64,000 nucleotides of DNA from the IMG/VR virus record IMGVR_UViG_3300030390_001550, positions 26,232 through 90,231 of that record; one strand, written 5' to 3'. Under the pieces are notes generated by a model that saw only the letters and a program-made list of their open reading frames with translations, was not told the origin of the DNA and searched no databases. This stretch comes from a virus. The first letter of the stretch is position 1, and the number at the start of each line of letters is the position of its first letter. The translations under genes and the position numbers were made by a program. Positions 4,784 to 63,512 of the stretch are shown one piece after another.

Positions 4784-5475
4784 TACAAAAGTTTTTTATC
4801 CATATTCCGAAAAACGGTGGAATGAGTATTAGACGTAGCAATATTGCTAGACCTAAAGTAATGATTGCAGCACCACAAACTCACAAAACTGGCGAATACA
4901 CCCAAGCGGTTAGAAATAAAATGCAATCGCTTGGTGAGCATGATGGTTTTGAACACGCTAGATGGAAAGATATTAGCAAGGGTTTACAAGACAAAATGCA
5001 GTTTTTTGCGATTGTAAGAAATCCTTGGGACAGAGTTGTTTCTCGTTACTTTTTTGCTAAAAAGGTTATTTACCTTGAAGAAAATTCAGATCATTATGGT
5101 GAGACTGAATATTCAGATTGCTCATCATTTGAGGCTTTTCTTGAGGAAAGGCATAAATGGGGTGGACATGAATACATGTGGCACAGAGCCATTCGTGGTT
5201 GGTATCCAGCAAAAGATTATGTAACTTGTGATAAAGGTATTATGCGTTGTGATATTTTACGACTTGAGCATTTAGATGAAGAGATATGTAAATATTTAAA
5301 TTTGCCATTTATGACAGGACCAAGAAATGTAACTGCTGTTAATGATAAGCGTTATCAAGACATATATACACCAGAGACGATTCAAATTGTTGCGGATTGG
5401 TATAAAAATGATATTGAGCAGTGGGGTTTTGATTTTGATACACCTGCACAAAAAAACTATTGGTGTGAAGATTAA
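4780..5475 (+). CDS. PAPS-dependent carbohydrate sulfotransferase-like protein
   Basis: A 231-aa protein with both PAPS-binding signatures of the sulfotransferase superfamily: the 5'-phosphosulfate loop H-I-P-K-N-G-G-M-S (residues 8-16, family consensus HIPKTGGTS) and the 3'-phosphate motif V-R-N-P-W-D-R-V-V-S-R (about 79-89). It would transfer sulfate to a hydroxyl of a sugar. ATGA overlap with the upstream glycosyltransferase supports a shared glycan substrate. Phage-encoded sulfation would need PAPS from the host. Family assignment is solid; substrate is unknown. Confidence 0.8.
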   Translation: MIQKFFIHIPKNGGMSIRRSNIARPKVMIAAPQTHKTGEYTQAVRNKMQSLGEHDGFEHARWKDISKGLQDKMQFFAIVRNPWDRVVSRYFFAKKVIYLEENSDHYGETEYSDCSSFEAFLEERHKWGGHEYMWHRAIRGWYPAKDYVTCDKGIMRCDILRLEHLDEEICKYLNLPFMTGPRNVTAVNDKRYQDIYTPETIQIVADWYKNDIEQWGFDFDTPAQKNYWCED

Positions 5476-9801: not shown

Positions 9802-10860
9802 ATGAAAAAACTTTTAGCAATCGTAGCAGCGGGAATGATGTTAGCAACAAGCGCATTCGCTGGGGATAAAGTAAAAGTAGGGTTTGTCTACGTTGGACCA
9901 ACTGGTGATCATGGGTGGACATATCGTCATGATATTGGTCGCCAAGGAGTGCAAGACCATTTCGGTGACAAAGTTGAAACTGTATATGTAGAAAGTGTTA
10001 AAGAAGGTCCAGACGCTGCAAGAGTTATTCGTGGTATGGTAATGGACGGTGCTGATATTATTTTTACAACATCTTTTGGATATATGGAACAAACGCTAAA
10101 AATGGCGAAAATGTTTCCTAATGTAAAATTTGAACACGCAACTGGATATAAGCAAGCAAAGAATATGTCTAGTTATGGGCTTAGATTATATCAAGCACGA
10201 CACGTACAAGGTATTATTGCTGGACTTATGACAAAAACAAATAAGATTTGTTATGTTGCAGCATATCCAATTCCAGAAGTTATTCGTGAAATTAATACCT
10301 ATTTTATGGGCGCACGTAGAATGAATCCAGACGTTGAAATGGATATTGTATGGGTAAATACTTGGTATGATCCCGGAAAAGAGTCGGATGCTGCTAAAGC
10401 CCTCATGTCCCAAGGTTGTGATATGATTGCACAACACACAGACTCTCCTGCGCCAATGCAAGCAGCAGAGGCACAAGGTAGACATGGCTTTGGTCAGGCA
10501 TCAGATCAAATTGTGTTCGCGCCAGATGCACAATTGACTGCAACTATTGATAACTGGACTCCTTATTATATTCGTAAAGTTGGAGCAGTTATTGATGGAA
10601 CTTGGGAGAGTGAGAACTATTTTGGTGGTATGAAAGAGGGTGGTGTGCAAATGGCCCCATTTACCAATATGCCAGATGCAGTTCGCGCCAAAGCACAAGA
10701 GGTAAAAGACCAAATTGAAAATGGCGAATACTTTGCTTTCACTGGGCCATTATATGATAATGAAGGAAATCTTCAACTCGCTGAAGGTGAGGTCGCAACT
10801 GATTTTCAGTTAAATTCAATGAATTATTATGTTGAAGGAATTAACGCGAAAGTACCTTAA
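9802..10860 (+). CDS. Periplasmic BMP/PnrA-family substrate-binding protein
   Basis: A 352-aa secreted solute-binding protein. It has a classical Sec signal peptide (residues 1-20, cleavage after S-A-F-A) and no lipobox Cys, followed by K-V-G-F-V-Y-V-G-P-T-G-D-H-G-W-T, the signature start of the Bmp/Med (PnrA-like) family, with a complete two-lobe length. Known family members bind purine nucleosides for ABC import. No permease or ATPase gene is nearby, so the phage protein would have to feed a host transporter; that is inference. Strong RBS (AAGAAAGG) and an inverted repeat downstream suggest a single-gene unit. A host origin by transfer is likely. Confidence 0.9.
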   Translation: MKKLLAIVAAGMMLATSAFAGDKVKVGFVYVGPTGDHGWTYRHDIGRQGVQDHFGDKVETVYVESVKEGPDAARVIRGMVMDGADIIFTTSFGYMEQTLKMAKMFPNVKFEHATGYKQAKNMSSYGLRLYQARHVQGIIAGLMTKTNKICYVAAYPIPEVIREINTYFMGARRMNPDVEMDIVWVNTWYDPGKESDAAKALMSQGCDMIAQHTDSPAPMQAAEAQGRHGFGQASDQIVFAPDAQLTATIDNWTPYYIRKVGAVIDGTWESENYFGGMKEGGVQMAPFTNMPDAVRAKAQEVKDQIENGEYFAFTGPLYDNEGNLQLAEGEVATDFQLNSMNYYVEGINAKVP

Positions 10861-10913: not shown

Positions 10914-11495
10914 ATGAATAATACAACAAATGGCGGTTCACAACCAGCAATGATTCCACCAAAAATGCAATTAATTTCAAATGGAATGTATGTGTTTATG
11001 GGTGATGTGTCTATGGATACGATGAGTCCAATTATTGATTGGATATTATCAGAAAATATGAAAAGAAGTGATAGACAAAAAGAATTGACTTTAGGTATTT
11101 GCTCAAGAGGTGGTGATCTTAATGCTTGCTTTGCATTAGTTGATGTTTTGAGAGCATCAACAATTCCTGTTAAGACTGTAGGATTAGGTATGATTGCATC
11201 TTGTGGTTTGCTTTTATTTATATCTGGACAAAAAGGTAAAAGAATTTTAACACCAAATACTGCAATTTTATCTCATCAATATTCTTGGGGTAGTGTAGGT
11301 AAAGAACATGAATTGTTTGCCAGAGTGAAAGAGATGGAACTCACAACCGAGCGTATGATTAATCATTACAAAAAATGCACTGGGATGAATGAAAAAAAAG
11401 TAAGAGAGTTTCTTCTTCCACCAGAAGATGTTTGGTTAAGCGCAGAGGAAGCAAAAAGTTTAAAACTTTGTGATAAAATAGAAGATATACAATAA
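10914..11495 (+). CDS. ClpP-like serine protease
   Basis: A 193-aa ClpP-fold protein with a complete catalytic triad: Ser96 in G-M-I-A-S-C-G, His121 in A-I-L-S-H-Q, and Asp172 in P-P-E-D-V-W-L-S-A-E-E-A. The oxyanion loop S-R-G-G-D (64-68) is present. ClpP-family peptidases form tetradecamers and need an unfoldase; the phage copy could use host ClpX/ClpA or act in capsid maturation. It is followed by a strong terminator, then the AsnRS-like gene and an aberrant tRNA. Confidence 0.88.
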   Translation: MNNTTNGGSQPAMIPPKMQLISNGMYVFMGDVSMDTMSPIIDWILSENMKRSDRQKELTLGICSRGGDLNACFALVDVLRASTIPVKTVGLGMIASCGLLLFISGQKGKRILTPNTAILSHQYSWGSVGKEHELFARVKEMELTTERMINHYKKCTGMNEKKVREFLLPPEDVWLSAEEAKSLKLCDKIEDIQ

Positions 11496-11523
11496 AAATA
11501 TTACTAAATACATCTAATGAGTT

Positions 11524-11550
11524 GAGGAAGCCTTGGCTTCCTCTTTTTTT
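11524..11550 (+). terminator. Rho-independent terminator
   Basis: GAGGAAGCC, loop TT, GGCTTCCTC, followed by seven T. It sits 28 nt downstream of the ClpP-like gene and just before the AsnRS-like gene, so the latter needs read-through or its own start. Confidence 0.88.
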
Positions 11551-11566
11551 AAAAGAAAGAGAGAAA

Positions 11567-12394
11567 ATGACACAACTGATAAATCCAAAGAAATTTACTA
11601 ACACTGTGGGGCTTTTACGCTCCTTTTTTTTGACCAGAGGGTTTCAAGAAGTACATACGCAAAATAGATTAAGCATTTTAGCAGCATGTGAAGACCCAGA
11701 AAATGTAGCAAGTTATAATTATGAAGGTGAGGTTTGGCCTTTACCGCAAACAGGTCAAATGTGGCTAGAACATGAATTATTATCTGATCCCTCTGCGAAG
11801 GGATTTTTTTGTGTCTCCACTTCATATAGACAAGAACCAAACGCAATTCCAGGTAGACACGATACGATTTTTCCTATGTTTGAATTTGAAATGGCAGGTG
11901 ATATTAATGATCTTAAAGTTATGGAAAGACAATTAGTAAGTCACTTAGGTTTTGACGATTGCACAGAGAAAACGTATGGAGAATGGCAGCAACATTATGG
12001 TGTTAGTGCAAATACCGAATTGGATGCCCAACATGAGTTGGCAATGCAAGCATCATTCGGTTCTTGTATGATTACAGATTTTCCAGAGATAACAAGTCCG
12101 TTTTGGAATATGTCTAGAAACGAGGATGGTACAAGTAGAAAAATTGATGTTATCCTTGGTGGTATGGAAACTATTGGTAGTGCAGAACGCAGTACCGACA
12201 AAGAACAAATGAGAAACACATTTAATACAATTTCTAATGGTGAATATGCTGGACTCATCAAGAGTTTATTTGGAGATGAAAGGGTTGAGGCAGAACTTGA
12301 AAAGTTTCTTGAGTTTGATTTCTTCCCAAGAGTTGGTGGTGGTATAGGGTTGACACGAATGATATCCGCTCTAGAAACTCAAAAGAGTAACTAA
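11567..12394 (+). CDS. Minimal AsnRS/AsxRS-like class II synthetase core
   Basis: A 275-aa protein that is only the catalytic core of a class II aspartyl/asparaginyl-type synthetase. Seen: G-F-x-E-V near 25 (motif 1 region), T-G-Q-M-W-L-E (62-68), motif 2 Y-R-Q-E (87-90) with R-H-D (97-99) and F-E-F-E-M (105-109), G-G-M-E-T-I-G-S-A-E-R, and motif 3 G-G-G-I-G-L-T-R-M (257-265). ATP-binding residues are kept, so an adenylation reaction is plausible. The N-terminal OB-fold anticodon-binding domain is absent. Stand-alone cores of this kind include asparagine-synthetase-like AsnRS paralogs and EpmA. The ATG at 11567 has a GA-rich RBS; an upstream TTG inside the terminator is rejected. A tRNA with Asn-like identity bases lies 9 nt downstream. 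Confidence 0.85.
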   Translation: MTQLINPKKFTNTVGLLRSFFLTRGFQEVHTQNRLSILAACEDPENVASYNYEGEVWPLPQTGQMWLEHELLSDPSAKGFFCVSTSYRQEPNAIPGRHDTIFPMFEFEMAGDINDLKVMERQLVSHLGFDDCTEKTYGEWQQHYGVSANTELDAQHELAMQASFGSCMITDFPEITSPFWNMSRNEDGTSRKIDVILGGMETIGSAERSTDKEQMRNTFNTISNGEYAGLIKSLFGDERVEAELEKFLEFDFFPRVGGGIGLTRMISALETQKSN

Positions 12395-12403
12395 AGCGCA
12401 TAT

Positions 12404-12514
12404 TCTGGGGTGGTGGAATAGGTAGACACGCGATACTGTTTATATCGTGGATATATAGTTAAGTGTAAAAGACTATTTATATTCGTGAAGGTTCGAGTCC
12501 TTCCCCCAGAGCCA
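12404..12514 (+). tRNA. Aberrant tRNA with GUU anticodon and giant variable arm
   Basis: 111 nt with encoded CCA. Acceptor TCTGGGG/CCCCAGA with discriminator G; D-arm GTG/CAC whose 19-nt region (12411-12429) is identical to that of the phage tRNA-Leu at 19497; anticodon stem CGATA/TATCG with loop CTGTTTA, anticodon GTT at 12438-12440; T-arm GAAGG/CCTTC with loop TTCGAGT. The variable region is 39 nt (12448-12486) and can form an 11-bp arm with a 2-nt bulge. Anticodon GUU, G73 and U1-A72 are Asn-type features, but the body is class II (Leu-like), and position 37 is U where a purine is nearly universal. It may not be a decoding tRNA. Confidence 0.8.
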
Positions 12515-12528
12515 AAGGAAATAAAAAA

Positions 12529-13392
12529 ATGATACCAGTGATTGATTTAAATTCTTCATATGCAAATCAGCATATTGAGGATGCCTACACATCTGTGGGT
12601 TTTGCAGTTTTTACTAATAGTTTAACTCAAATTGAAAAGTCTGACATAATTAGTTGGTTTAGCGAAATGAAAGCATTTTTCAATTTACCTGATGAAATAA
12701 AGAAAAAATATCCATATGAAGGCGATACCAATCTAGGATATAGCATGGTGGGTGATGAAAATGTTGATCCAACAGCACCTAAAGACATTAAAGAATCTTT
12801 CAATTACAATAATACAAGAATGAGCGAATATCTTTGGCCCAAAGAACTTCCAGGATTTAAAGCAACAGCATTACAAAGTATTGATGTTGCAGACAAACTT
12901 ACGATTAGAATACTTAGTAGGTTTGATGAAATTCTAAAATGTGGCACTACTCTTGTGGACGCTCATATGAAACCATTTAACACTACAAGAGTTATTCATT
13001 ACCCAGCCCATGATGGTCCAGTAGAAGATAAGCAAATGAGAATAGGTGAACATAGTGACTATGGTACTATCACATTACTGTGGCAAATTAATGATGTTCC
13101 AGGATTGCAAGTTCAAGACTTAAAAGGAGAGTGGCATCCAGTGCCATATGATGTTGACGGTGTGGTTGTGAATATTGGCGATCTACTCCAGAGATGGACA
13201 AACGATTACTTTAAAAGCACTAAGCATAGAGTAGTTAATTCGCATATACATAAGACTAGATACAGTATGCCACATTTTGTTGATCCTACTCCAGGAACAA
13301 TGGTGAAAAATTTGAGAACCCATGAGGTTGACAAGTACTTACCTATTGAGAGTAAAGAATATTTGATGTGGAGACTAGCACAAAGTTATTGA
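12529..13392 (+). CDS. 2OG-Fe(II) oxygenase, isopenicillin-N-synthase-like
   Basis: A 287-aa member of the IPNS/flavanone-hydroxylase-like dioxygenases. It has the N-terminal I-P-V-I-D-L strand, the HxD iron site in G-E-H-S-D-Y-G (about 172-178), V-P-G-L-Q-V, the distal His in S-T-K-H-R-V (about 231), and the 2-oxoglutarate-binding R-Y-S-M (about 244). It would use Fe(II), O2 and 2-oxoglutarate to oxidise a small molecule or modified base. The RBS is AAAGGA just after the tRNA. Substrate unknown. Confidence 0.85.
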   Translation: MIPVIDLNSSYANQHIEDAYTSVGFAVFTNSLTQIEKSDIISWFSEMKAFFNLPDEIKKKYPYEGDTNLGYSMVGDENVDPTAPKDIKESFNYNNTRMSEYLWPKELPGFKATALQSIDVADKLTIRILSRFDEILKCGTTLVDAHMKPFNTTRVIHYPAHDGPVEDKQMRIGEHSDYGTITLLWQINDVPGLQVQDLKGEWHPVPYDVDGVVVNIGDLLQRWTNDYFKSTKHRVVNSHIHKTRYSMPHFVDPTPGTMVKNLRTHEVDKYLPIESKEYLMWRLAQSY

Positions 13393-17840: not shown

Positions 17841-18039
17841 TTCATATGGACGTACAGCCACGGTAATGTCAACAATGCAAAATTTGGCTATTAGAAAAAC
17901 GGCAAAGAGCAATTTTCGTAGTGTAATGGAATTGGAGCAAATGCCTATGGCAAAAGATAGTGCAAGTCATTCTAAAAATCATGAAATTGATTATCAAAAA
18001 CTTGTTGATGCCATTATCAAAAGTGGTGATTTAAAATAA
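17830..18039 (+). CDS. Small basic phage protein
   Basis: A 69-aa protein overlapping the genes on both sides (11 nt upstream, 1 nt downstream). The N-terminal half is basic; the end is an acidic helix (Y-Q-K-L-V-D-A-I-I-K). No family recognised; coupling to the IscA-like gene suggests co-expression. Confidence 0.5.
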   Translation: MRINSYGRTATVMSTMQNLAIRKTAKSNFRSVMELEQMPMAKDSASHSKNHEIDYQKLVDAIIKSGDLK

Positions 18040-18347
18040 TGATATTAAACGTCACAGACAAGGCAAAAGAATATATGACCCATCAGTTAGTTTTGGCTGA
18101 GAAAAATTATGTACTTCTTGAGGTAAAGGGTGGCGGTTGTAGTGGTTTTAAATATGAATGGTCGTATGTTGAGGATAATTCAAAAGGCACTCTGATTGAT
18201 AATATATTGGTTCTTGATGCTATGGCAGAAATGTTTGTCTTTGGATGTACTGTTGATTACATAACAGAACTTGGTGGTAATTATTTAATAGTACAAAATC
18301 CAAATGCAAAAGCACAATGTGGTTGTGGAGAAAGTTTTGCAGTCTAA
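18039..18347 (+). CDS. A-type Fe-S cluster carrier (IscA/HesB family)
   Basis: A 102-aa protein with all three conserved cysteines: Cys34 in G-G-G-C-S-G and Cys94/Cys96 in C-G-C-G-E-S-F. Family members carry or transfer iron-sulfur clusters in the cytoplasm. HesB/IscA-like genes are common in marine T4-like phages. Here it could support Fe-S enzymes such as the radical-SAM proteins at the right end; that link is inference. Confidence 0.9.
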   Translation: MILNVTDKAKEYMTHQLVLAEKNYVLLEVKGGGCSGFKYEWSYVEDNSKGTLIDNILVLDAMAEMFVFGCTVDYITELGGNYLIVQNPNAKAQCGCGESFAV

Positions 18348-28336: not shown

Positions 28337-28626
28337 ACTTGGCGAGACACGCGAACAAAATTATTAAGATTAACCCTAATATGATGATACCGTATTATCT
28401 TATGGCATCATATGCTTATTATGAAGAATCTGATCCAATTTTTTCTGATAGTTACTTTGATAATTTGGCTAAAAATATTTTAAAAGAATGGGATAACTTA
28501 GATCATTACCATAAACATCTACTAGATAGAGATGTTCTTGAAGCAGGAAGTTATATTGGAAAATATCCAACAATCGTAATTGACTCTTTAGATGAATTGA
28601 AAAAAGGAAAAAATAATGCTAATTAA
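28333..28626 (+). CDS. LigA-related small phage protein
   Basis: A 97-aa protein with [16 protein letters not shown] (about 18-33) and D-S-Y-F-D-N-L, like the N-terminal Ia region of NAD-dependent DNA ligases (Y-Y-x-x-D-x-P-x-x-S-D-x-x-Y-D). Phages often encode this piece alone; no adenylation domain follows here. Its role is not established. It overlaps the GMP reductase gene by 11 nt. Confidence 0.6.
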
Positions 28627-29629
28627 TGATGATGTTAAACTTGATTATTCTGACGTTTTGATCAGACCAAAACGATCAACACTAACTTCGCGGTATGATG
28701 TTGACTTAGAGAGAAAATACAAATTTAAACATAGTAAAAAAACTTGGATGGGAACTCCAATTATGGCATCAAACATGGATACTGTGGGAACATTTTCCAT
28801 GGCAGATGTGTTGACTAATTATAATATGATAACTTGCCTCGCCAAACATTATAATGCAGAAGGTGTATGGCCCACTAAAATTCTAGAGCCAAATCATTTA
28901 TGCGTTATGGGTGGAATATCTGATACTGACATTCAAAACACTCAAAAAATATACCAATCAAGTGAAGCATTTTTCATTGGTTTAGATGTAGCCAATGGCT
29001 ACACAATTAGTTTTGTAGATGCTGTAAAGAAAATGCGTGATTTAGAACCAGACGCTACAATTATTGCGGGTAATGTTGTCACTGCTGATATGACGCAAGA
29101 ACTAATCCTTGCTGGTGCAGACATTGTAAAAGTTGGTGTTGGTCCTGGTTCAGTTTGTACAACAAGAATTAAAACTGGTATTGGTATGCCTCAACTGAGT
29201 GCGGTTATTGAATGTGCTGATGCAGCGCATGGTATGGATGCTCATATCATTGCGGATGGTGGATGTACTACTTCTGGTGATATGGTGAAAGCATTTGCCG
29301 CAGGTGCAGATTTTGTAATGATTGGTGGTATGCTTGCTGGGCATGATGAATGTGATGGTATTATAGACAATGGTAAAATGAAATTTTATGGTATGGCGTC
29401 AGGCTCTGCGATGGATAGACACAAAGTTGGTCATAGAGAATATAGAGGCGTTGAAGGTAAAACCGTCACAGTAGATCATAAAGGGCCAGTGGAGTTAACA
29501 CTAATTGATATTTTATCTGGCATCAGATCAGCGTGTACTTATGTTGGTGCAAGCAGATTAAAAGATTTATCAAAATGCGCGACATTTGTAAGAGTAAATA
29601 ATACGCATAATACAGTTTATGGCTCTTGA
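28616..29629 (+). CDS. guaC: GMP reductase
   Basis: A 337-aa TIM-barrel enzyme of the IMPDH/GMPR family. The catalytic loop G-P-G-S-V-C-T-T-R (176-184) with Cys181, then [13 protein letters not shown], and [10 protein letters not shown] ... E-G-K-T-V-T-V fit GMP reductase rather than IMP dehydrogenase; there are no CBS domains. It converts GMP to IMP with NADPH, shifting guanine toward adenine nucleotides, which suits an AT-rich phage. Strong RBS AAAGGA. Full length. Confidence 0.9.
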
Positions 29630-58807: not shown

Positions 58808-59326
58808 ATGATCACCAAAAGTCAATTCTTGAGTATAATCTCAAGTGATATTGCTTATGAGCAAAATATGGTCTATGCCATAGACGAAAATGGTAGAGAA
58901 CATCTCATGAAAAATTTTGCAGATACACTTGCAAATAAAGATACAAATTCAATAAAAATTGAAAGAATGGAAGCATACAACTCGGAAATTTTTTCCTATT
59001 GTTTAGAACTAGAAGATATGTATGAGCATAATGGCCCAATAACATGTCATTTATTTTATGCTGAAAAAAATGCTCATTCATTCAAAAAACATACTGATCC
59101 AGATAATGTTGTTATATATTGTTGTGAAGGTATGAAAACTATAGCAATGGAAGGTCATACTATGGGTGGTGAGCCAGTATTTACTTTGAAGGCAGGTGCA
59201 ATACTACATATTCCTGCGAATACTCTTCACCAAGCATTTAATGAACATGAGGCACTTACTTTGAGTTTTGGCTTAGAAAAATTTATAGAGGATAAAATGA
59301 ATAGTGTTTTGGTCAGTATACCTTAA
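58808..59326 (+). CDS. Cupin-fold protein
   Basis: A 172-aa protein with cupin motifs: F-K-K-H-T-D-P-D-N-V-V-I-Y (about 95-107, possible HxD) and I-P-A-N-T-L-H-Q-A (about 139-147, distal His). It could be a metal-dependent oxygenase or a scaffold. AAAGGA upstream. The last 23 nt overlap the radical-SAM gene, so the two are co-expressed. Confidence 0.7.
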   Translation: MITKSQFLSIISSDIAYEQNMVYAIDENGREHLMKNFADTLANKDTNSIKIERMEAYNSEIFSYCLELEDMYEHNGPITCHLFYAEKNAHSFKKHTDPDNVVIYCCEGMKTIAMEGHTMGGEPVFTLKAGAILHIPANTLHQAFNEHEALTLSFGLEKFIEDKMNSVLVSIP

Positions 59327-60323
59327 AACCACAGAAACTTGTCAATTAAACTGTAAGCACTGTTTTACTTCTGGTAGCAATGGTGCTAAAATTTATTGGA
59401 ATACTGATAAGATAGTTGATTGGATACATAGATTTCGTGAAGAAAAACCTGCAAAGGGTGATGGTATTCATTTAGAGTTTCATGGAGGCGAACCATTTCT
59501 TGTACCTGTAGGGCAAATGAGAAAGGTGTATGATGCTTGTGATGGTCTTTGGGATAATATGAGTTGGGGAGCCACAACCAATTTAGTGTATAAATTAAAA
59601 GATCAGCATAGAGAATTTATAAAAGGTCCACTTAGAAATAGGTTAGGAACTTCATGGGACCGTAAGATAAGATTTGATAATCAAAAACAATATAACTTGT
59701 GGCATAAAAACGTCAAGTCTCTTTTAGCAGATGGTGTAACTATACGTTTGTTTATTAGTCTTACTAAAGATACTTTAGAAAAAGACCCTATTGTATTATT
59801 AAGATGGTGTAGAAGATTGGGAGTTCAAGAGGTATCTTTAGAGAGATTGACCAATAATGGTTCAGCGCGTGAAGCATCAGAAATATTTCCATCAAATAAA
59901 GAGTTAGATGCTTATTTTTTGAAAATGCACCAGCAAAGTGAAGAATATGGAGCGCGAGATTGGTTTGAAAATGATTTTTTTGAAAATATATATGCTAAAT
60001 TTGAAAAAACTCTTACGACATGTGGTACTTTTTGTAGAGATTGCGAAACAAAACTATTCACGATAAATGGTGATGGTACAATAAGTGGTTGTCCAAATTC
60101 AGCACCAGAATTTCAGTTTGGAACTTTAGATGATCCCATTAAAACTCTTATAAATAGTCCTAGAAGAATAAGAACTATCATTGAAGAAAAAATGAGAAAC
60201 CCCAATTGTCTTTCTTGTCCTGTTGCGAAATATTGTGGTGGCGATTGTCATCAATTAGGATGGGAAGGTGATGTGTGTGGCGCACCTAAAAGTTTAATGA
60301 TGGAATTGGCAAAGAATGTCTAG
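59304..60323 (+). CDS. Radical-SAM/SPASM maturase-like enzyme
   Basis: A 339-aa protein, GTG start at 59304 with GAGGAT upstream. C13-x3-C17-x2-C20 (C-Q-L-N-C-K-H-C) binds the 4Fe-4S/SAM cluster; H-L-E-F-H-G-G-E-P-F carries the GGE motif. The C-terminal half has a SPASM-like set of cysteines (C-G-T-F-C-R-D-C, G-C-P-N, C-L-S-C-P-V-A-K-Y-C-G-G-D-C) for auxiliary clusters. The layout is that of anSME/RiPP maturases acting on peptide side chains. The CHSN-repeat protein follows 10 nt later and is the obvious candidate substrate. Confidence 0.9.
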   Translation: MFWSVYLKTTETCQLNCKHCFTSGSNGAKIYWNTDKIVDWIHRFREEKPAKGDGIHLEFHGGEPFLVPVGQMRKVYDACDGLWDNMSWGATTNLVYKLKDQHREFIKGPLRNRLGTSWDRKIRFDNQKQYNLWHKNVKSLLADGVTIRLFISLTKDTLEKDPIVLLRWCRRLGVQEVSLERLTNNGSAREASEIFPSNKELDAYFLKMHQQSEEYGARDWFENDFFENIYAKFEKTLTTCGTFCRDCETKLFTINGDGTISGCPNSAPEFQFGTLDDPIKTLINSPRRIRTIIEEKMRNPNCLSCPVAKYCGGDCHQLGWEGDVCGAPKSLMMELAKNV

Positions 60324-60333
60324 GAGATAAAGA

Positions 60334-61173
60334 ATGGCGATATCAGACCCTATTACAGAAAATCCTGTAATTACAAAATACAGACAGTTTGTGACTGATA
60401 AAATTAATAGTGCTATCGTGTTTGGTGATGATAATGTACCAGACGCATCTGTTGCCAGTTATTTTCATGGCACTAGAAGTGGTGTGACCACTAGTCCTGA
60501 TTTAATAGATGGGCCTATAACAGCATCAAATATTTTTGCTGTTCTATTGAAGGATGTTAACAAATATACTAGAATTAGAAAATTTAATGCTACAAGAACG
60601 GTAACAGGTATTCCAGGTGGCAACACACCAATCCCAACACGCAATAGTTCTTCTACTGCAAATGCAGATGCTGAAAAAAACTTTGCGTGTGAATGGCAAT
60701 CTGCTTTAGATGATGAAATTGCCTCGCGAAGTTTTAGGGGAAATACGCCCACATTTGGTGACCATATTTCAGCGTTCTTCACAAAATATAATACCTATGG
60801 AATTGGTGGAAAGCCTACTACAAAGCAAGAAGCAAGAGACCTACAACCTGCTGCTCAAAGTGCATGTGTTGCAGCAACTCAAAAATATGGCGTAAGTCTG
60901 AGAACTGGTGCTAAAATCAATACACCTTTAAATGTTAGTGGAGTCGGTATTCTAACAGCAAAACATAGTTTTTTTATTGATTCTAGTGATGTTGATCATT
61001 CAATGATTGTAGCAGGAGATTTAATTGATGATGCTGATATGGAGTCATTATTCAATAACCTATATCAAGCATGGAAAAGTGTTGCATTAGACGGTACGGT
61101 AACAGGATATAGCGAGTCTGTGTGTCATTCCAATTGCCACTCTAATTGTCACTCATCAAGGAATAGGAGATAA
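60334..61173 (+). CDS. CHSN-repeat protein, candidate radical-SAM substrate
   Basis: A 279-aa protein, start with AGGAGAT upstream. The bulk (1-260) is soluble with no known fold; near the end S-D-V-D-H-S-M-I-V-A-G-D-L-I-D-D-A-D and L-F-N-N-L-Y-Q-A-W resemble ends of marine phage structural proteins. The chain ends V-C-H-S-N-C-H-S-N-C-H-S-S-R-N-R-R: three period-4 C-H-S-(N/S) units and a basic tail. The units use different codons, so the repeat is kept at protein level. Cys and Ser are typical radical-SAM modification targets. Flanked by two radical-SAM genes. Confidence 0.75.
   Translation: MAISDPITENPVITKYRQFVTDKINSAIVFGDDNVPDASVASYFHGTRSGVTTSPDLIDGPITASNIFAVLLKDVNKYTRIRKFNATRTVTGIPGGNTPIPTRNSSSTANADAEKNFACEWQSALDDEIASRSFRGNTPTFGDHISAFFTKYNTYGIGGKPTTKQEARDLQPAAQSACVAATQKYGVSLRTGAKINTPLNVSGVGILTAKHSFFIDSSDVDHSMIVAGDLIDDADMESLFNNLYQAWKSVALDGTVTGYSESVCHSNCHSNCHSSRNRR
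61123..61158 (+). repeat. Coding repeat C-H-S-N x3
   Basis: Codons TGT CAT TCC AAT, TGC CAC TCT AAT, TGT CAC TCA TCA. The same four-residue unit is written each time with different third bases. Confidence 0.9.
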
Positions 61174-61180
61174 ATTTATT

Positions 61181-61834
61181 ATGGATAATTATGTTACAGT
61201 GACTGCCCCTCTAGGTATTGATGACTTGCAGAAATATTTTTCTGATGACAGCATTAATTTTATTATTGATTATGAAAATAGTGAGTTACAAGGTGAGAAA
61301 TTGCTTGTCTATTTAAGCAACTTAGAATTACCTTGTGATATTAAAGTTGAAAGAAATGATTTAGAAACCCTTGCAAAAATTTATCTCCAGTTTCCGCAAA
61401 TATTAAATATTAAAGTTTTAGAAGAATTTATTATTAAGGTTCTTTTGGTAAGAAAAAAACTATCTTTAGAATCTTTAGATTACTATCAAGATTTCATTGA
61501 TGATAATGAAGAAGTGATTGATACTTGGATTAAAAAGTTGGACTCATTGACACTTTATAATATGTATATTATCCAAGATGATGAAATGAAAGATTGGGTA
61601 CTATCCCATAAAGAAGATGATACTGATGATATAAAAGGTATAAATTTTGTATCTGTATTAAAACATGAAGATTTTTATTACTACTACAATGGTTTAGATG
61701 AAAAAAACTTGACCTATTATTCAAAATATTTTAATGAATATATGTTTAATGGGAAAGGTTTATTCGATTATTGGTCCTATGAAAAAAATCCAATTTTCCT
61801 ATTAACTTGGGGAGTTGGTGCAGGAGAAGTTTAA
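61181..61834 (+). CDS. Unknown protein of the radical-SAM cluster
   Basis: A 217-aa acidic, Leu/Tyr/Asp-rich protein, mostly helical. N-terminal V-T-A-P-L-G-I-D-D-L-Q-K-Y and C-terminal F-L-L-T-W-G-V-G-A-G-E-V. It sits between the CHSN-repeat gene and the second radical-SAM gene, directly adjacent to both. It could be a peptide-recognition or partner protein; I recognise no RRE-type wHTH by eye. Confidence 0.6.
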   Translation: MDNYVTVTAPLGIDDLQKYFSDDSINFIIDYENSELQGEKLLVYLSNLELPCDIKVERNDLETLAKIYLQFPQILNIKVLEEFIIKVLLVRKKLSLESLDYYQDFIDDNEEVIDTWIKKLDSLTLYNMYIIQDDEMKDWVLSHKEDDTDDIKGINFVSVLKHEDFYYYYNGLDEKNLTYYSKYFNEYMFNGKGLFDYWSYEKNPIFLLTWGVGAGEV

Positions 61835-62875
61835 TTGGATTTAGTAGATTTTATTTTAAGAGATAAAAGAGATAAGCAGCAAGAATACACAATTCATTTA
61901 TTTGAATTTTGTAATCTGTCTTGTCCATTTTGCTGGCAAGACCATGACAACATTGTGGGTATTGATACTGTATTGGACAAGTTGGAATCAATAGAAAAGT
62001 TTTTTCAAAAAGAGATGAGGAAACATGTAGTTTTAAACATCATGGGTGGTGAGATATTCGCTGATGAAATTTTTGATGAAAAATTGAAGAACGACTATAT
62101 TGCTCTTGCCCAAGGAATAGTAGACTTAGGAAAAAAATATAAGTTTGAGAGTATAGGAATTAATTGGGTCACTAACCTAGTAATTAGTAAAAGAGACTAT
62201 GTGCGAGATATATTGAAGGCGTGTAGAGATATGGGCTGTAACTCAAAACTCGTAACTTCATATGATCCTAGAGGTAGATTCAATAAACCAAACTTAGAAA
62301 TTTTCAAAGAAAATGTATATGATTTCTGGGATGATCTTGAAGGAATTGGTGTTCTTTTAACCAAGTCTAATATTAAATATTGGTTGACTGATCCTAAAGA
62401 TTTTATGCACGAATTATATCATAAGGGCGTAAAGGTTTATGCTGATTATTACATGCCTGATTGTCAAGCAGAACGAAGTATGCCAACAGACAAAGAACAT
62501 TATGATATTTTCACGCATTTTATAGATAAGTATCCTAAAATTGAGCCTATTCGTTCTTGGATAGAAAATGAGCGTAATGTTGTTTCATGCAGATCATCTA
62601 AATTAGTTCTTGAGGATGGAACCATGTGTTTGTGTGGAAATCTTGTTCAAGAGCCAAGAGATAAAGCGATGTACAAAACAGACATACAGAAGGCTAATAA
62701 CAAACCTATTGAAAAGGCTTTCCTTGAAAAGTATAATTGCTCTACTTGTGAATATTTTCATAGATGTACTCTTGGGTGTTTCATGGCACATGATTATAAA
62801 TATGCAGAAGAGGTTTTTGATGAATGTGTCTATAAAATGACACATAGATACATTGAAAATAAAGGATTAAGATGA
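61835..62875 (+). CDS. Second radical-SAM enzyme
   Basis: A 346-aa protein with TTG start at 61835 and AGGAG 8 nt upstream, directly after the previous stop. C26-x3-C30-x2-C33 (C-N-L-S-C-P-F-C) and V-L-N-I-M-G-G-E (about 69-76) mark a radical-SAM core. The C-terminus has Cys pairs (C-L-C-G-N, C-S-T-C-E-Y-F-H-R-C-T-L-G-C) like a SPASM/twitch auxiliary site. Different from the first enzyme, so a second kind of modification is likely. Confidence 0.88.
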   Translation: MDLVDFILRDKRDKQQEYTIHLFEFCNLSCPFCWQDHDNIVGIDTVLDKLESIEKFFQKEMRKHVVLNIMGGEIFADEIFDEKLKNDYIALAQGIVDLGKKYKFESIGINWVTNLVISKRDYVRDILKACRDMGCNSKLVTSYDPRGRFNKPNLEIFKENVYDFWDDLEGIGVLLTKSNIKYWLTDPKDFMHELYHKGVKVYADYYMPDCQAERSMPTDKEHYDIFTHFIDKYPKIEPIRSWIENERNVVSCRSSKLVLEDGTMCLCGNLVQEPRDKAMYKTDIQKANNKPIEKAFLEKYNCSTCEYFHRCTLGCFMAHDYKYAEEVFDECVYKMTHRYIENKGLR

Positions 62876-62876
62876 G

Positions 62877-63512
62877 ATGTTTTTTTATAAAAATGGCGAT
62901 AAATCTCCAATTAGCCAATCCTTTATAAATAGATTTCCAACAAGAAAAAGATTAACTAATCCAATTAAAGAAATTGATATAGAGTATAATGTATGCCATA
63001 CAGTATTTGATTATTTAGTTGATACTAAATTACCACCATGCATTCATTTTTTAGATAATTTTTTGAAAAGTGAAGTGTATGTGTTTAGTGTTCCACTATC
63101 AAGTAATTTATTATCTAAAGTTAATAGTAAATCTATGATGGAAGATTATACTACTCAATTTACTGGATCACCCAAAACAGTAGTAAATAATGATTATGAG
63201 TTAGGATGGATTGGCATAGAGAAAACTAAAAATTATACAATAATGTCAAATATTCAAATAAATGGAATTTATAGAGATTGCTTAACCAGAAGGCAAGAAA
63301 TAGATTTTTATAAAACTATGATCAAGTTTTGTAAAGGTGAAATATTGAATATGCCAATTTATGTGCCTACAGCCGAAACACTATACACACAAATGAAAAA
63401 AAATCCTGCACATCCTGATAGTGCTATAATGGAAACACCTTACACATCTAAGGTTTTAAAGGGGTTCACAAAGATACAATTTATGAACATGGAGTTTTAT
63501 AAAAATGATTAA
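62877..63512 (+). CDS. Unknown protein of the radical-SAM cluster
   Basis: A 211-aa protein 1 nt after the second radical-SAM gene (AAGGA upstream). Near the end comes Y-T-Q-M-K-K-N-P-A-H-P-D-S and T-P-Y-T-S-K-V. Alpha-beta composition, basic ends, no metal motif. It overlaps the third enzyme gene by 8 nt. Unknown role. Confidence 0.6.
   Translation: MFFYKNGDKSPISQSFINRFPTRKRLTNPIKEIDIEYNVCHTVFDYLVDTKLPPCIHFLDNFLKSEVYVFSVPLSSNLLSKVNSKSMMEDYTTQFTGSPKTVVNNDYELGWIGIEKTKNYTIMSNIQINGIYRDCLTRRQEIDFYKTMIKFCKGEILNMPIYVPTAETLYTQMKKNPAHPDSAIMETPYTSKVLKGFTKIQFMNMEFYKND

Follow-up and report, generated by a model that had tools for sequence, protein, structure and literature searches.

Why should a phage genome carry, one directly after another, a gene for a ClpP-like protease, a gene for an aminoacyl-tRNA synthetase core and an aberrant tRNA gene? 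The stretch of DNA analysed here, hereafter the window, comprises 64,000 nucleotides of a 90,231-base virus record that has T4-like baseplate and gp32 genes and T4-like relatives. The initial annotation proposed a possible tagging system, in which the small synthetase charges only the neighbouring RNA and the amino acid is used outside translation, for example to mark proteins for ClpP. All three elements were present and consecutive in the window (Table 1), with 9 nt between the synthetase and the RNA and with a 2OG-Fe(II) oxygenase gene (12529-13392) following them.

Table 1. Positions of the three consecutive elements and of parts of the RNA, numbered along the window
Feature	Position	Strand	Details
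ClpP-like ORF	10914-11495		Pfam CLP_protease 1.1e-26
Mini-synthetase, class IIb catalytic core, asparaginyl type, 275 aa, without anticodon-binding domain	11567..12394	+	
Class II tRNA-Asn, anticodon GUU	12404..12514	+	G73 at 12511, encoded CCA 12512-12514
Anticodon arm	12431..12447	+	loop CTGTTTA 12436-12442, anticodon GTT 12438-12440, U37 at 12441
Variable region, 39 nt	12448..12486	+	base pairs covary across relatives

The RNA was missed by ARAGORN and by Rfam at its gathering threshold. It has a 7-bp acceptor stem starting from U1-A72, a Leu-like D-arm, a standard T-arm and an anticodon loop that reads CUGUUUA in the RNA. Across 24 relatives, 98.4% of the cells of the cloverleaf and variable stem were paired and 20 of 24 pairs had changed on both sides, compared with 39-60% of cells and 4-9 such pairs in slid-partner controls, which rules out a chance fold. 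In the variable stem, all four pairs had changed on both sides and 91.7% of cells were paired, as expected of a class II cloverleaf. Because the fold covaries and the synthetase-RNA pair recurs across phages, the RNA is more than a product of chance.

Class II tRNAs are those for Leu, Ser or Tyr, and to our knowledge tRNAs with a long variable arm serve only a few amino acids, asparagine not being one of them. One source likewise names Leu, Ser and Tyr as class II tRNAs (PMC9976931). The phage RNA has GUU in place of a Leu, Ser or Tyr anticodon, and this anticodon was present in all 80 RNAs listed, out of at least 120, by a pattern scan that was blind to the anticodon. GUU and G73, which are among the elements named for bacterial Asn identity in the same source (PMC9976931), were present in 78 of 78 RNAs. 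CCA was encoded in 75 of these 78; the three without it are from Prochlorococcus phages. Locus counts are not independent, since many contigs are near-identical, and 56 distinct RNAs were used for conservation. U8, A14, G18G19, U33, GUU, T54T55C56 (TTCGA), A58, U1-A72 and G73 were invariant in all 56. From the invariance of U8, A14, G18G19, U33, GUU, TTCGA and G73, we concluded that the elbow and fold are those of a working tRNA.

The synthetase matched tRNA-synt_2 (1.7e-15) and PHROG 29758 (phrog_29758, "unknown function", 6.4e-129). Its AF2 model (pLDDT 91.7, pTM 0.90) fitted best to the catalytic domain of AsnRS (8tc8_C, Z 27.3, 246 residues, rmsd 2.2), followed by AspRS (Z 26.1), GenX (Z 23.9) and archaeal asparagine synthetase A (3reu_B, Z 23.7); it thus shares the fold of the last enzyme, which does not imply the same function. 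Model residues 6-273 of 275 align to residues 245-531 of 8tc8_C and nothing precedes them, so the N-terminal OB-fold anticodon-binding domain is missing, as had been proposed. The adenylation motifs proved to be intact as well: the model, the fold match and residues R88, E90 and R264 identify a class II catalytic core in which motifs 2 and 3 are present, and these residues, together with E68, were invariant in 64 of 64 alignment rows. In phage rows as in cellular ones, the motif residues and the segment QTGQMWLE varied little or not at all. The synthetase is under purifying selection, with a pN/pS of 0.05-0.18 in 15 of 17 pairs, the remaining two pairs having very few changes.

The enzyme scored 24.1 bits against the AsnRS model TIGR00457 (curated cut-off 342.6) and 16.9 bits against the archaeal asparagine synthetase A model NF005055 (curated cut-off 389). 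The E-values were 1.4e-5 and 1.3e-6 for AsnRS/AspRS versus 0.0026 for NF005055. In HMMER alignments, QTGQMWLE aligned with QSSQLYLE of AsnRS and not with QSPQLYKQ of AspRS; therefore, asparagine is favoured as the substrate. The synthetase segment GSAER also resembles SGAQR of AspRS in an alignment with 6od8, a likeness that presumably holds for AspRS more widely, and given this likeness the sequence does not make Asn rather than Asp certain. Overall, the pair resembles bacterial AsnRS and tRNA-Asn in its catalytic fold, motif residues, GUU and G73, but differs from them in the absent anticodon-binding domain, the low TIGR00457 score and the class II form of the tRNA.

One model in the initial annotation was that the small synthetase is dedicated to this RNA. 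A synthetase-anchored set comprised 84 phage loci (the window, L001-L003 and L006-L085), in 78 of which the whole RNA adjoins the synthetase, with a median gap of 6 nt. L026 is cut by the contig end, and in the other five (L011, L018, L035, L038 and L076) the RNA was absent, also across their whole contigs. Two pattern scans anchored on the RNA, which yielded overlapping sets and each listed 80 of at least 120 stretches, gave the reciprocal result: the synthetase was directly upstream in 77 of the 80 loci listed by the first scan and upstream in 78 of the 80 listed by the second, anticodon-blind scan, and the remaining three and two loci, respectively, have the RNA at the locus end. This near-complete, reciprocal co-occurrence supports dedication in part; the enzyme is predicted to charge the RNA beside it.

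ClpP does not belong to this association. Neighbours were surveyed in the window, L001-L085, L087-L095 and L163, counting ORFs of at least 60 aa, three on each side. Adjacency of ClpP to the pair was confined to the window and three closely related loci (L006, L007 and L010); at the other loci examined, that of phage P-SSM7 included, ClpP did not appear among the nearest neighbours. The same survey revealed no transferase or pathway gene that travels with the pair. Hence, of the three consecutive genes, the synthetase-RNA pair recurs but ClpP is not conserved. The two genes appear self-sufficient because their neighbours differ between loci, and the best reading is that they form a mobile, self-contained two-gene cassette of marine phages.

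Some other genes recur nearby. A PnrA/BMP-like binding protein gene (9802-10860 in the window) was found near the pair in 16 loci and the 2OG-Fe(II) oxygenase gene in 18, both in varied order and strand. Elsewhere, the window encodes an IscA-like iron-sulphur protein (18039-18347; Fe-S_biosyn 1.1e-8) and an IMP dehydrogenase/GMP reductase-like gene (28616-29629; 2e-67). Near its tail genes are two radical SAM genes (59304-63512; phrog_1802, 4.5e-61 and 2.8e-41), with ORFs without assigned function between and after them.

After analysing these data, we favour, on balance, an explanation in which an anticodon-blind asparaginyl-tRNA synthetase core charges a dedicated class II tRNA-Asn, and the charged tRNA serves phage translation. 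Because the enzyme has no anticodon domain, it would most likely pick its RNA by the acceptor end (U1-A72 and G73) and the class II body. This combination would be absent both from ordinary tRNA-Asn, which has a short variable loop, and from ordinary tRNA-Leu, which has A73. Phage tRNA-Leu has A73 too. Given the A73 of class II tRNA-Leu, a class II body that combines U1-A72 and G73 is expected to be uncommon in a host. The charged tRNA would then be read on the ribosome at AAU and AAC codons of phage messages. The enzyme cannot read GUU, and the strict conservation of GUU therefore suggests another reader, most simply the ribosome, although a host AsnRS could also be that reader. The unusual anticodon loop, with U, A or C at position 37, and the body of the tRNA may let it go on functioning while host tRNA-Asn is cleaved or in short supply, and escape from such attack on host tRNA may be the reason for its retention. 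Anticodon-loop changes that defeat VapC have been proposed for mycobacteriophage tRNAs (PMC10264068). These are likewise phage-borne tRNAs with an altered anticodon loop, but the proposal includes no private synthetase, and the main text of the paper never uses the word synthetase.

Position 37 is a difficulty for this explanation, as are the five loci that have the synthetase without the RNA and the cellular and huge-phage relatives that lack it. A37 is near-universal in tRNA-Asn and is the site of t6A. Among the 56 distinct RNAs, 44 have T at position 37, 10 have A, 2 have C and not one has G; with a pyrimidine in 46, the A37 of tRNA-Asn is not maintained. The ordinary tRNAs of these loci, by comparison, carry a purine at 37; four "ordinary" calls of 99-102 nt with a pyrimidine at 37 were set aside here as presumed misreadings of the class II RNA, and some long purine-37 calls are possibly misread too. 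A pyrimidine at 37 should weaken the decoding of AAY codons and speaks against an ordinary decoding role; possibly it is the cost of escaping host anticodon nucleases or the sign of a role outside translation. The "non-decoding features" described in the initial annotation were therefore borne out in part, namely in the class II shape and the pyrimidine at 37, whereas the elbow elements, U33, GUU and the 3′ end are intact.

Several other readings give position 37 or the enzyme a different meaning. We entertain, tentatively, that the two genes are a natural virus-borne orthogonal pair with anticodon-blind charging in which the RNA is a dedicated amino-acid donor or an altered decoder, position 37 having been freed since AAY decoding would not be its task. 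It is unlikely, in our view, that the enzyme charges the class II RNA for use of Asn outside translation, where it would be the donor in the modification of a protein, a lipid or a small molecule. The pyrimidine at 37, which sets these RNAs apart from ordinary phage tRNAs, would fit such a donor, and tRNA-Other of Bacillus cereus offers a precedent for a role outside translation (PMC3399842). However, no transferase or pathway gene accompanies the pair, and GUU and U33 are invariant despite an enzyme without an anticodon domain, as are the elbow elements in 56 of 56 RNAs. The use of the amino acid outside translation that was initially suggested is thus not favoured.

The enzyme could instead make asparagine, as archaeal asparagine synthetase A does, and the RNA could be an additional tRNA-Asn that host enzymes recognise by its anticodon and G73 and charge, the two together raising the Asn supply of the phage. 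We judge this improbable. The fold match to archaeal asparagine synthetase A, the existence of cellular relatives without the RNA, and GUU and G73 as the elements that bacterial AsnRS reads (PMC9976931) are consistent with it, but it leaves the class II body unexplained, the sequence is nearer to AsnRS/AspRS than to NF005055 by the E-values above, and AsnB-like genes, which were matched in 9 of 13 cellular genomes with the enzyme, show no clear complementarity with it.

We consider it very unlikely that the RNA serves to divert host anticodon nucleases, as a decoy or sacrificial target that the enzyme only marks or protects. The anticodon loop is altered next to an intact GUU, and tRNA-targeting defences exist (PMC10264068), yet a decoy needs no dedicated synthetase, and this enzyme is under strong purifying selection and stands beside every listed RNA except those at locus ends. 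The downstream position of the RNA and its complete tRNA 3′ end speak against regulation of the synthetase by the RNA, for example as an attenuator. ClpP was rejected as a partner: marking of proteins for ClpP by the charged RNA, suggested by adjacency in the window, is extremely improbable when the pair elsewhere stands among unrelated genes.

Homologues of the synthetase with 50-60% identity occur in diverse bacteria and some archaeal bins, and one is held by the 735-kb huge-phage record LR756501. In 18 stretches from cellular genomes and huge phages, the best matches to the RNA model were tRNA-Leu, except on a Methylophilaceae bin contig, where the match was a class II tRNA-Asn; the huge-phage loci (L004, L005, L087 and L088) have no adjacent class II tRNA-Asn. 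Five MAG contigs (L089, L090, L091, L095 and L163) carry the RNA and are presumably phage contigs. The active site is unchanged in cellular and huge-phage relatives, which do not have the class II RNA, so the enzyme family has a chemistry independent of this RNA. A search with the Pasteurella atlantica relative as query gave no match in plasmids, and no relatives of L005 were confirmed in IMG/VR.

A quick tree was built from 113 rows, and in it all 65 RNA-bearing rows fell on a single branch (SH-aLRT 95) together with 8 rows without the RNA; identical proteins, L003, L086, L147, L171 and rows after L168 were omitted from this tree, and every second cellular row was taken (36 kept). The simplest history is a single gain of the RNA in phages followed by several losses. 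In L094, around position 4858, the synthetase stop codon is followed by no more of the tRNA than its two acceptor halves, joined by one base, which looks like a loss of the tRNA interior, by a real deletion or by assembly collapse.

Among 13 cellular genomes with the enzyme, AsnRS was above the cut-off in 6, GatB was present in 10 and AsnB-like domains were present in 9. There was no clear complementarity, and the enzyme was rejected as a stand-in for a missing AsnRS in cells. No member of the archaeal asparagine synthetase family was above the cut-off in the four genomes searched for it. In Pasteurella atlantica (L112), the synthetase relative is flanked by pyrD-like and pyrF-like genes and by a phosphoribosyltransferase-like gene, as named from ORF reading, and PyrF-like ORFs seem to follow the relative in Midichloriaceae loci.

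A phage tRNA accompanied by its synthetase is a known kind of arrangement. The synthetases of huge phages were proposed to charge the phages' own tRNAs (PMC7162821); unlike the pair described here, they have no class II tRNA-Asn beside them in the four huge-phage loci above. tRNA-Other of Bacillus cereus is a tRNA-like RNA with unusual features as well, but it is poorly aminoacylated, and the accessible text mentions no dedicated adjacent synthetase (PMC3399842). The RNA resembles class II tRNA-Leu in its D-arm and long variable arm, and differs from it in GUU, U1-A72 and G73 instead of A73. Similarly, archaeal asparagine synthetase A and EpmA/GenX are free-standing class IIb cores of similar size and fold, and we know of no case in which they travel with a tRNA gene.

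Of the pair itself, two parts were known before. The synthetase was tabulated as "tRNA ligase" T4-GC 194 in P-SSM2 and P-SSM7 (PMC3037559), its only mention in the literature searched, and GenBank lists a tRNA-Asn beside the synthetase in P-SSM7 and P-SSM5. The literature searched, with most subscription papers outside its scope, contained no description of the pair, of the class II nature of the tRNA or of the missing anticodon domain. In P-SSM7, the pair adjoins three other tRNA genes. The RNA model matches the P-SSM2 record (L002, NC_006883.2) only once, at 162083-162168, immediately behind the synthetase; the annotated tRNA-Asn of this record is at 164094-164179, inside PSSM2_205, and this annotation looks displaced by about 2 kb.

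If our explanation is true, the class II tRNA-Asn and its anticodon-blind synthetase core would form an orthogonal tRNA-synthetase pair of natural origin, would illustrate how the identity of a tRNA can shift away from the anticodon, and would be a candidate part for genetic-code engineering. Additionally, the pair would suggest that tRNA-Asn comes under pressure when abundant ocean bacteria are infected. The pair is carried by phages of Prochlorococcus that are in culture (P-SSM2, P-SSM5 and P-SSM7), and the question is therefore directly testable.
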